Shown here: positions 26,748-56,876 of the stretch, one piece after another
Layout of the letters: every line of letters starts with the position of its first letter
How positions within the stretch are numbered: the first letter of the stretch is position 1
Assembly: GCA_019636285.1 (NCBI GenBank)
Contig: JAHBXV010000016.1
Coordinates: forward strand, 1-64,000
From: Planctomycetaceae bacterium
GTDB lineage: Bacteria > Planctomycetota > Planctomycetia > Planctomycetales > Planctomycetaceae
Direction: 5' to 3'
DNA length: 64,000 bases
Translations under genes and position numbers: made by a program
The notes under the pieces: model-generated
The model's input: only the letters and a program-made list of their open reading frames with translations
The model's database searches: none
What the model was told of the DNA's origin: nothing

Positions 26748-26794
26748 GAGGGCGAGTGTTCCGTCAAGGCCTGATTTTCGTGTGCCACTCTACG

Positions 26795-27123
26795 CTGTTA
26801 ACCTTCTTGGCTGCCGCCCCCACCGGCTTGACCGGTGGGAACGGGAGTTTGACAGCTAGCACGAGACCACGATCCGTCCCGGTCCGCCCCCGGCCAGCTT
26901 GTCTGGCCGGAGCAAAAGTTTGAGGGCTGGCCTCCAACGACCCTGGTCTGCCAGACTTGGCTTCCTGCCGAGCAAGCCGGCAGGGGAGCGGAGAGACCTG
27001 GTATGAAATCTCTAGCCTTCAAACTTTCCGTCCGGCGGGACAAGCCCGCCGGGGCTGTCGGGCAGCTGGAAAAAGAACAAACATTTTTCGCAGCTCTTGT
27101 TCCACCAAATAGGGTTAACAGCT
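26795..27123 (-). repeat. structured multi-hairpin element with terminal inverted repeats, copy A
   Basis: 329 nt bounded by GCTGTTAACC and GGTTAACAGC. Read on the minus strand it contains, in order: a GAACAA/TTGTTC hairpin, CCGGCGGGCTTGTCCCGCCG, AAAGTTTGAAGGCT opening a long stem, CTGCCGGCTTGCTCGGCAG, the closing AGCCCTCAAACTTT, CCGGCCAGACAAGCTGGCCG, and CCACCGGTCAAGCCGGTGG. The same order is found at 56332-56654 on the + strand, with compensating changes. No protein is encoded. It lies between convergent genes (decarboxylase and porin). Confidence 0.85.
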
Positions 27124-27131
27124 TCGCGTGC

Positions 27132-27148
27132 CACTGGCTTTGCCAGTG
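27132..27148 (+). repeat. CACTGGC hairpin repeat, copy 1
   Basis: CACTGGC-TTT-GCCAGTG, preceded by GTGC. Copies with the same arms and different loops lie at 34933, 50606, 54175 and 56796. It is followed by two other hairpin-type repeats: GGTAGCCGTGGGTCGC with GCGCACCCA around 27272-27297, and CGACCCCGACCAGGGGTCG around 27321-27340. Confidence 0.75.
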
Positions 27149-34867: not shown

Positions 34868-35282
34868 CGCTGAGCGCGGGCGAAATGTTCGCGTCCCAAT
34901 GGCTGTTCGCGTGCCGCTGAATCCTCGTGTGCCACTGGCTCCGCCAGTGCGTCTTTAGCGTTTGCCTGCACGTGTTCCCAGGCTCCGCCTGGGAACACTA
35001 CTCCCCGAGGCTCTGCCTCGTTCTAGGCCAAGCAAGACGAATCCCGAGAACGAGAAAGCAAACGGCCCCGTCTTGCCAACCACCCCTTACTCCCACCGAT
35101 GCCGAAGGCATCGCAGACGGTAGCCGTGGGTCGCCGAAGGCGCACCCACGGTCCGGGCCCGCGTCCTGAATACGACCCCTGAAGGGGGTCGCAGAGAATC
35201 TTTGACGTGGTTCTCTGTCAGCGTTAATAGACGGGCCGTCCCCGTCTCACTAACCACCAACCACGACCCACCAACCACCCAA
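34868..35282. repeat. cluster of different hairpin repeats
   Basis: 415 nt without a gene. In order: CACTGGC-TCC-GCCAGTG (34933-34949, copy 2 of that family), TTCCCAGGC-TCC-GCCTGGGAA (~34977-34997), CCGAGGC-TCT-GCCTCG, GGTAGCCGTGGGTCGCC with GGCGCACCCACGG (~35119-35150), CGACCCCTGAAGGGGGTCG (~35172-35190), and ACTAACCACCAACCACGACC repeats to 35282. The same set occurs in a looser form at 27132-27384. Confidence 0.75.
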
Positions 35283-50389: not shown

Positions 50390-51055
50390 TCTTCAGGAGT
50401 GGTTCAGAGCTTGCAAAATCCGCCGGGTGCCACTGCTAGCTTGCCTTGCAGTGGGAGCGGTTGACTGGGCGACATCGCCGAAGTGGGATGCGTCTCCGTG
50501 CCGCGGGGCTTGGAAATGCCGAGTGCGCGCGATGAAATCAACCAATCTCGGTTCGGAGGGAATGGCGACTCCCCGTTTCGAGTATCCGACCCAGCGCGGA
50601 AAGGACACTGGCGGAGCCAGTGGCACACGGAGACCAGTTTGCCACCTCTTGTGGCTTCGCCACCCAGGTAGGCCTGGGGCCAACCTGGGCCACCCGGAGC
50701 GAGTTAGTATAGAGTCCGTCGGCCTTTTTGGACTTCATCGATGACATCAACGACGACGAACACTCCGCCGCGGGATGATGAGCTGGTTCGGGCGGCGAAT
50801 GCGGGGGAGTGAAGGGGAGAGGGAGAAGGGGTGACGCGGTGATGGGGTGAGGGAGCGATGGGGTGAGAGGGGAAGGGGAGACGCGGGGAGTGAAGGTGGG
50901 GGCTCACGGAGGCGCTGAGCCACGGAGAGATAGCGGGGGTGGTGTGGTTGTTGGGGTTGCTTTGCGGTCTCGGCGTCGTCTGCGGTGAATGGTTTTTTAC
51001 CGCGGAGGCCGCGGGGGGCGGGGAGAGAGGGCGTCAAGAGACGTGGGCCGGTGGG
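50390..51055. repeat. repeat-rich intergenic region
   Basis: 666 nt without a supported gene. In order: a CCACTGC/GCAGTGG hairpin (~50428), CACTGGC-GGA-GCCAGTG (50606-50622), GTGGC-TTC-GCCAC and the CCCAGGTAGGCCTGG hairpin (50651-50695, copy 4 of that family), then G/A-rich arrays (GGGGTGACGCGGTGATGGGG and similar) at 50805-50895, and CACGGAGGCGCTGAGCCACG at ~50907. Confidence 0.65.
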
Positions 51056-54174: not shown

Positions 54175-54191
54175 CACTGGCATAGCCAGTG
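54175..54191 (-). repeat. CACTGGC hairpin repeat, copy 4
   Basis: CACTGGC-ATA-GCCAGTG, followed by GCACACG; the flank order is reversed relative to the copies at 27132 and 34933. An upstream hairpin CACGCCC..GGGCGTG lies at about 54118-54142. Confidence 0.75.
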
Positions 54192-54232
54192 GCACACGAA
54201 AGAACACAGAGCCCGGGAACGAGTGCCGCGGG

Positions 54233-56289: not shown

Positions 56290-56331
56290 TGCTCGGTCCA
56301 TCTTAAAGATGCGGATGGGCGGCTCTCTACG

Positions 56332-56654
56332 CCGTTATCCTTTTGGGAAGATCAATGACCACGAAATGCGTTTGGTCATTCTTTCGGCTGCCCAACCGCC
56401 CCGGCGGGCTGGCCCCGCCGGACGGAAAGTTTGATCGCTAGAGTCGTCCCGGTTTCTCTTGGCTCCCCTGCCAGGCTTGACCGGCAGGAAGCCGAGTCTG
56501 TCAGGCCAGGGTGAGTGCCAGCGATCAAACTTTCGCTCCGGCCAGACAAGCTGGCCGGGGGCGGACCGGAGTAGGGTGCGGTATGTGCTATCTGTCAAAC
56601 TCCCGTTCCCACCGGTCAAGCCGGTGGGGGACGCTGCAAAAAGAAGTAACGGCA
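56332..56654 (+). repeat. structured multi-hairpin element with terminal inverted repeats, copy B
   Basis: 323 nt bounded by GCCGTTA and TAACGGC. In order: AATGACCA/TGGTCATT hairpin with loop CGAAATGCGTT; CCGGCGGG/CCCGCCGG; AAAGTTTGATCGCT; CTGCCAGGCTTGACCGGCAG; AGCGATCAAACTTT (exact complement of the earlier 14-mer); CCGGCCAGACAAGCTGGCCG; CCACCGGTCAAGCCGGTGG. Collinear with copy A at 26795-27123 (opposite strand). It also lies between convergent genes (msrA and lpxA). Confidence 0.85.
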
Positions 56655-56690
56655 TAGAGTGGCTCTGCCAGCGCCTCTTGTTTTAGAATT

Positions 56691-56768
56691 CCTAACACAA
56701 CCTCTGTGCAATCAAGCGTTTGCCCGGACTTTCGCAAGTTTCTGGCGGGCACAACCGGTTGTGTTAGG
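56691..56768 (+). repeat. inverted-repeat element, family D copy 1
   Basis: CCTAACACAACC and GGTTGTGTTAGG are a perfect 12-bp inverted repeat around ~54 nt. The interior shares TCTGTGCA and GGCACAAC with 57838-57914. Confidence 0.7.
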
Positions 56769-56795
56769 GGTTCTTAGGCATTTGATTTCAGGCGC

Positions 56796-56812
56796 ACTGG
56801 CGGAGCCAGTGG
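56796..56812 (-). repeat. CACTGGC hairpin repeat, copy 5
   Basis: CACTGGC-GGA-GCCAGTG followed by GCACACG, in the reverse orientation to the two copies left of 41.5 kb. Confidence 0.75.
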
Positions 56813-56876
56813 CACACGAAAATCAAGCTGTCGAAAACAAGCTGTGACATAGTCCCAGCCGACGTCTCGCGAACGC

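Follow-up and report, generated by a model that had tools for sequence, protein, structure and literature searches.

Two copies of a hairpin-rich element, A and B, lie in the window, i.e., the whole stretch of 64,000 nucleotides analysed here (G000:C22:1-64000), which is part of a genome of 6.37 Mb assembled in 113 contigs. Both copies are real, collinear and inverted relative to each other, and each is located between convergent genes, as the earlier note had described. For the element, which that note had put at about 325 nt and described as bounded by terminal inverted repeats, the exact limits are 26789-27127 for copy A (339 bp, forward strand) and 56326-56658 for copy B (333 bp, reverse strand). 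The identity between the two is 83% across the part aligned by BLAST. Compared with dinucleotide shuffles, both fold far better than expected, with z values of -7.0 and -7.9 for copies A and B.

Copy A carries the left terminal inverted repeat CTACGCTGTTAACC at 26790-26803 and the right one, GGTTAACAGCTTCG, at 27113-27126 (both on the forward strand). Between them we find four hairpin modules, H1 (26813-26861, forward; 8-bp stem, loop CTTGA, 16 nt, CTAG), H2 (26884-26932, forward; loop CTTGT), and, in opposite orientation on the reverse strand, H3 (26942-26990) and H4 (27010-27058). They are followed by a fifth hairpin, GAACAA/TTGTTC (27075-27102, forward), which is poorly kept between copies. 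The target duplication, GTGCCAC, stands on either side on the forward strand, at 26782-26788 and at 27128-27134, where it is also the foot of a REP-like hairpin (27128-27148). In copy B, H1 (56586-56634) and H2 (56516-56564) lie on the reverse strand and H3 (56461-56510) and H4 (56395-56443) on the forward strand; its left and right target duplications, read on the reverse strand, are GAGCCAC (56659-56665) and GAGCCGC (56319-56325), one mismatch apart.

With copy A as the BLAST query, 34 matching stretches were found in the own genome, and reading of the alignments revealed 12 near-complete copies with both ends present. Copy A and the copy at L002 are 96% alike. Two internal-deletion forms, L087 and L088, of approximately 113 and 62 bp, kept both ends, and there are blocks of modules without recognisable ends, e.g., L015, L017, L021 and L029. 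The latter may stem from an older spread by a Y1 enzyme or from some other spread, or their ends may have decayed. By a heuristic ORF call, the genes flanking the 12 full copies are convergent in six cases, tandem in six and divergent in none, and none of the 12 is overlapped by a coding-like ORF; the element encloses no gene. Related genomes had been named as the place to look for further copies; the full element was found in none of the 149 others among the 150 family genomes searched, where at most four candidates were scored per genome and fragments may be missed.

Aligned copies begin with NCTACGCCGTTAACC and finish with its inverse; terminal repeats given for L001, L002 and L005 with a shift of one or two bases were disregarded. 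Directly outside these ends stand direct 7-mers of the type GTGNCAC. Without L012 and L014, whose ends are degenerate, and L011, which has one end, the target-duplication test comprises 14 pairs. Read directly, seven of them are exact (7/16 when all two-ended copies are counted) and the total is 11 mismatches, against a mean of 21.6 for shuffled partners; none of 100,000 shuffles was as low (P<1e-5). Read as inverted repeats, none of the 14 is exact and the mismatches amount to 26, and the centre base of the 7-mer is equal in 13/14 pairs and complementary in 0/14. The duplications are not perfect throughout: 7 of the 14 pairs are inexact, and L012 and L014, two of the 16 two-ended copies, have no matching 7-mers. 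An extension of the terminal repeats outward to take in GTGNCAC was rejected in view of the direct orientation of the 7-mers, which do not form inverted repeats.

Empty sites and target duplication, which the earlier note had wished to see checked in relatives, could be checked in the own genome. For 4 of the 12 copies (L001, L003, L010 and L025) we found paralogous empty sites with a single GTGNCAC, namely uninterrupted CACTGGC..GCCAGTG hairpins plus the outer flanks, elsewhere in the own genome. This count excludes junction-spanning matches of L002, L004, L007 and L013, which are weak or represent the element itself. The direct orientation of the 7-mers, together with empty sites that hold only one of them, identifies the flanking 7-mers, at the level of sequence, as target duplications.

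The four hairpins H1-H4 are copies of one 49-nt REP-like module, with H1 and H2 facing H3 and H4. Its layout is an 8-bp stem with a 5-nt CTTGN loop, then 16 nt including AGTTTGA, then CTAG or a variant thereof. With a threshold of E<=1e-3, a module model has 90 hits in the own genome, almost all within element loci. From a list of 62 distinct modules, two spurious ones (L014:961 and L021:2071) were dropped, and 46 of the remaining 60, the rest being mostly near-duplicates, entered the module alignment. The GTAG/CGTC tag known from REPs is not a feature of this module: CGTC occurs at the hairpin foot of H4 only, and CTAG is found 16 nt away instead.

The earlier note had seen paired positions change together between copies A and B, naming the terminal repeats, the first hairpin and a long-range stem. 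For the module hairpins, covariation is real and strong: 99.2% of the cells are paired among the 46 modules, with 57 two-sided changes compared to 15.4 in shuffles, and a full-length alignment of 11 of the 12 end-bearing copies (L025 was left out, as it has no H3) shows 13 two-sided changes compared to 6.0. The picture differs for the other parts of this alignment. The fifth hairpin is 63% paired and has no two-sided change in the 11 copies; GAACAA/TTGTTC, the "first hairpin" of the earlier note, had there been set against a stem of copy B in a different register, i.e., against a non-homologous one, and it is the homologous stem that reaches only 63%. Pairing reaches 88% in the terminal repeats; the two-sided GCT/AGC exchange that had been taken as covariation does exist, but in copy A alone, while the same place is unpaired in one other copy of the 11. 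Likewise, the difference between A and B in the long-range stem is compensatory, but one position of this stem is unpaired in 3 of the 11 copies; the stem itself exists because the tails of H2 and H4 are inverted copies of each other. Since the modules covary and the fifth hairpin, the termini and the long-range stem falter, a constraint on pairing is evident for the module stems, not for the whole element.

Matches to PF01797 (Y1_Tnp) were found at nine places in the own genome. One of these genes, on contig C35 (L074:1099-1896, 265 aa, Y1_Tnp E 1.5e-12), encodes a Y1 transposase of the IS200 type (RAYT-like). Its flanking hairpins correspond to those of the element in order and orientation, with the equivalents of H4 and H3 upstream of the gene and those of H2 and H1 downstream, and the stop codon TAG of the gene lies within the CTAG of the H2 module. 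The second hairpin of this unit, at the place of H3, has a 16-bp stem unlike H3, so that the unit is to be seen as a relative and not as the proven parent of the element. With gene-flanking hairpins in the order of the element, the window element corresponds to the layout of the C35 unit minus the gene. The C35 unit has no IS4-type ends. By sequence, the element is an IS4-type MITE that encloses a REP block without a RAYT gene. The C35 gene found no match among PDB sequences. Direct repeats of about 28 bp (GCGCTCCCCGTTGGGTCGCGGCT and neighbours; L074:893-921 and L074:2022-2064) lie on either side of the unit, in contrast to the duplications of the MITE, which measure 7 bp.

Relatives of the C35 gene, 38-71% identical, were collected from 20 named contigs, and occur in 24 of 150 family genomes, the own one included. 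The module model, although built from own-genome copies only, matches the flanks on 17 of these 20 contigs and never the inside of a gene, save for one match that overlaps the last 4 bases of a gene. On L101 and L102, a gene-less block of four modules (+,+,-,-; L101:50-289 and L102:1118-1359) directly adjoins a block of the form +,+,gene,-,-, which is the same relation as that of the window element to C35. Of 78 flanking hairpins found in a scan, 23 have CTAG at a distance of exactly 16 nt, and all other offsets between 0 and 31 together account for a single case; 5 of the 20 contigs have no hairpin of the loop type scanned for. The contigs L102 and L103, titled Candidatus Kuenenia, carry a RAYT and hairpins of the same kind as L101, a contig of Planctomycetaceae, and may have a wrong label or have been binned wrongly.

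In an alignment of ten proteins, DHxH is invariant (10/10), as is the tyrosine of EYD, and there is no Y..EQ. The DHxH/EYD signature does not occur in the motif columns of Table 1 of PMC6006769. The class 3 TnpA_Y1 proteins of Quentin have NHVH and YV[VI]xEQ motifs and about 178 aa (PMC6006769); an assignment of the C35 gene to this class was rejected in view of DHxH, the missing Y..EQ and the length of 265 aa. What comes to light is a planctomycete Y1 lineage (DHxH...EYD) with a REP architecture of its own, hairpin-16 nt-CTAG, without a tetranucleotide at the foot. The sequence of hairpin, 16 nt and CTAG is a concrete recognition rule that can be tested. Simple scans showed repeated flanking hairpins at five of the nine PF01797 genes of the own genome. 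The Y1 genes at L075, L077 and L082 (C59, C13 and C70) are each flanked by a repeated hairpin of their own, and several REP families with separate Y1 genes may coexist in this genome.

The ends of the element point to a different type of transposon. The pattern of 7-mer plus end, with at most two mismatches, occurs in 32 of 170 family genomes. Four pairs about 1.5 kb apart were fetched from three of them (G066, G047 and G004). They enclose elements of 1505-1559 bp, with 7-mers that are exact in two cases and one mismatch apart in the other two; the ends are NCTACGCCGTTAACC on the G066 element and NCAACGCCGTTAACC on those of G047 and G004. One element was read per genome, which yielded ORFs of 461-482 aa. 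All three transposases match PF01609 and NCBIfam IS4_1, with 124 bits for L165 against a cut-off of 115, and with 106 and 113 bits, just below it, for the other two. The YREK motif, Y(2)R(3)E(6)K, is present in 3/3, and the DDE spacings are 89-103 and 99. A DDE transposase with the YREK motif, encoded by a single ORF, puts the autonomous partner in line with the IS4 family.

In addition, we fetched ten short elements (122-374 bp; G029, G105, G071, G036 and G056) that have the same ends and unrelated interiors; the 7-mers are exact in five of the ten. Here the module model gave no match on L166-L169 and L171-L175 and one weak match on L170, and it detected no REP modules in the IS4-type ISs L162, L163 and L165. 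Two of the short elements, L172:189-310 and L173:200-347, hold inverted GTAG-tagged hairpins in a REPIN-like arrangement, with the tags detected in part by a scan and otherwise by eye; next to the window element, they would be two further instances of REP pairs within such MITEs. IS4-type MITEs with internal REP pairs may be a recurrent alliance in planctomycetes.

A search with the L162 transposase was positive in 34 of 170 relatives and gave no match in the 113-contig assembly of the own genome, where no transposase that could mobilise the MITE was found. Genomes with the ends and genomes with the transposase overlap in 18 cases, compared to 6.4 expected (p 2.6e-7, 170 genomes), a figure that can serve as a guide only since the genomes are related to each other. 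Several candidates for a DDE partner in the own genome were rejected. Six places with ends (at most one mismatch) outside the known copies are coding-looking or unrelated, and extra places with end plus 7-mer are remnants, deletion derivatives or unrelated. For the PF01609 matches on C37 and C59, the judgement is based on short open frames alone (187 and 149 aa); the third one belongs to an IS on C28 with other ends.

Implementing these observations, we consider it very probable that the element is a MITE with IS4-type ends whose body consists of REP modules of a Y1/RAYT-like unit. Inverted ends shared with an IS, a target duplication, dispersed copies and the lack of an internal transposase are all found here. 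Ends and duplications are common to the IS4-type IS of the relatives and the own genome has no such transposase, which suggests an orphan MITE of an IS4-type IS. An IS4-type DDE transposase would recognise the NCTACGCCGTTAACC ends, act in trans and paste the element into GTGNCAC sites, thereby duplicating 7 bp. A counterpoint is that no IS4-type transposase of this group turned up in the own genome, although copies that are 96% alike suggest recent movement. Because copy A and L002 are so similar, the enzyme presumably was lost from this lineage, or it is absent from the assembly or hidden in contig gaps. The REP block could be what a REP-REP-RAYT-REP-REP unit left behind when it lost the RAYT gene, and would then have ended up between IS4-type ends, where either the ends or the block may have been there before the other. 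Again there is a counterpoint, as IS4-type ends are missing from the C35 unit and its hairpin at the H3 place is unlike H3, so that descent from the C35 copy itself is unproven. The module stems would be DNA hairpin sites bound by a Y1 transposase, which would also explain their covariation.

Of the two readings that the earlier note had offered, the non-autonomous transposon is supported by the terminal repeats, the 7-bp duplications, at least 12 full copies and the autonomous partners in relatives, and its mention of a hairpin-dependent mobile DNA holds for the body, since H1-H4 belong, as modules, to a RAYT-like element with a Y1 transposase. The other reading, a new ncRNA class, gained no support. 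A structured ncRNA, or a bidirectional terminator, that was copied around the genome and keeps its stems by selection on the RNA would fit the folding z values, the two-sided stem changes and the absence of divergent gene pairs around the 12 copies. Against it, REP-type DNA hairpins explain the stems, in other genera the module flanks Y1 transposase genes as a stretch of DNA, and the fifth hairpin does not covary. Moreover, no Rfam family matched at gathering scores, and what lay below them (E up to 5) was at chance level and not credible; the copies bear target duplications, the derivatives of approximately 113 and 62 bp retain the ends alone, and the full element was found in none of the 149 other family genomes, with at most four candidates scored in each. 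We therefore regard an RNA function of this kind as very improbable, and note that covarying hairpins across repeat copies can mark transposase sites rather than RNA.

Somewhat less remote, and still unlikely, is that a RAYT-like Y1 transposase moves the element via single-stranded DNA, as has been proposed for REPINs, with terminal repeats and 7-bp repeats being incidental. The four modules of the C35 unit in mirrored order, the RAYT-less blocks beside RAYT-bearing ones on L101 and L102, and the blocks without IS4-type ends speak for it; however, the same ends bound module-free elements, and the 7-mers are duplications, which Y1 transposition is not known to make at its targets. That the element is simply an internal-deletion remnant of the IS4-type IS itself would account for the common ends and duplications, but its interior consists of REP modules, which L162, L163 and L165 do not have, and this makes it the least probable explanation, hardly to be expected at all. 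The IS4-type MITE with a REP body could, finally, have two engines, i.e., IS4-type ends for double-strand cut-and-paste and modules still recognised by a Y1 enzyme, either of which moves or multiplies it. We put this forward tentatively, as a doubtful extension of the preferred reading; if it is true, nested REP mosaics would be built up as the element inserts at GTGNCAC, the foot of other REP hairpins. In any case, the element joins DDE-type MITEs and RAYT/REP palindromes, which are usually studied apart, and offers 12 full copies for comparison.

With bacterial MITEs of IS families the element shares its short, transposase-free form, terminal repeats in common with an IS, target duplication, dispersed copies and internal-deletion forms; it differs in its interior, where four REP-like hairpins of another type of transposon form a mirrored block. 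Palindromes that flank a Y1 gene and come in inverted pairs were found here, as in REPINs, BIMEs and REPtrons, whose opposed palindromic modules lie near a Y1 gene with one family per gene (PMC3116915, PMC3733652). In contrast to REPINs and REPtrons, there is no GTAG/CGTC foot tag here and CTAG is 16 nt off (PMC3116915, PMC3733652). A further difference is that nearly all modules reside in one four-module element, of which the full copies have IS4-type ends and duplications. The PATEs of Haloquadratum are likewise transposase-free derivatives of an IS200/IS605-type element with palindromes kept and the core deleted, but they have neither terminal inverted repeats nor a target duplication (PMC3119063); the element has both, which sets it apart from PATEs.

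The ISPepr1 subgroup of the IS4 family comprises elements of 1500-1600 bp with a duplication of 7-8 bp (Table 1 of PMC2266710), which agrees with the size of the relatives' IS (1505-1559 bp), its 7-bp duplication and its YREK motif. The subgroup has ends of the form YT-AA-YTT---A and AT-rich targets (PMC2266710), whereas the relatives' IS has CTACGCCGTTAAC or CAACGCCGTTAAC ends and GTGNCAC-like targets. The partner IS fits ISPepr1 in size and duplication length, not in ends or target preference, and is at most a candidate member of the subgroup. Insertion into REPs is known from REP-targeting IS (PMC1525189), and several copies here occupy GTGCCAC, the foot of a CACTGGC..GCCAGTG hairpin; those IS are autonomous, whereas here it is a MITE which itself carries REP-like modules. 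Searches of the open literature on REPIN/RAYT, MITE, IS4 and REPtron and on planctomycetes yielded no paper whose title or opening abstract presents such a hybrid. While MITEs, REPINs/REPtrons, PATEs and REP-targeting IS are known, their combination and the CTAG-at-16 architecture appear to be new.

Other repeats occur in the neighbourhood of the copies. At the H3 hairpin of copy L018 lies a different PF01609 IS (L213:261-1763, 411 aa, arms around CAATCCTGTTCGGCACGAG), which may have inserted there. Solitary ends with GTGCCAC are found at L083:6112, L084:2381 and L085:6488, each with a third hairpin family, GTGGCACGCCCTGAGG..GGGCGTGG, within about 100 bases. A second REP-like hairpin, GTGCCACTGGCnnnGCCAGTG, is a frequent neighbour of the element; it has five copies in the window (27128-27148, 34929-34949, 50606-50626, 54175-54195 and 56795-56815) where none is expected by chance, and the Y1 transposase gene at C92:144012 is flanked by it too. 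The palindromic stretch CCTAACACAACCGGTTGTGC...GCACAGAGGTTGTGTTAGG, at 56691-56768 between copy B and the gene that follows, looks like a further miniature element and has similar counterparts near L011, L016 and L088.
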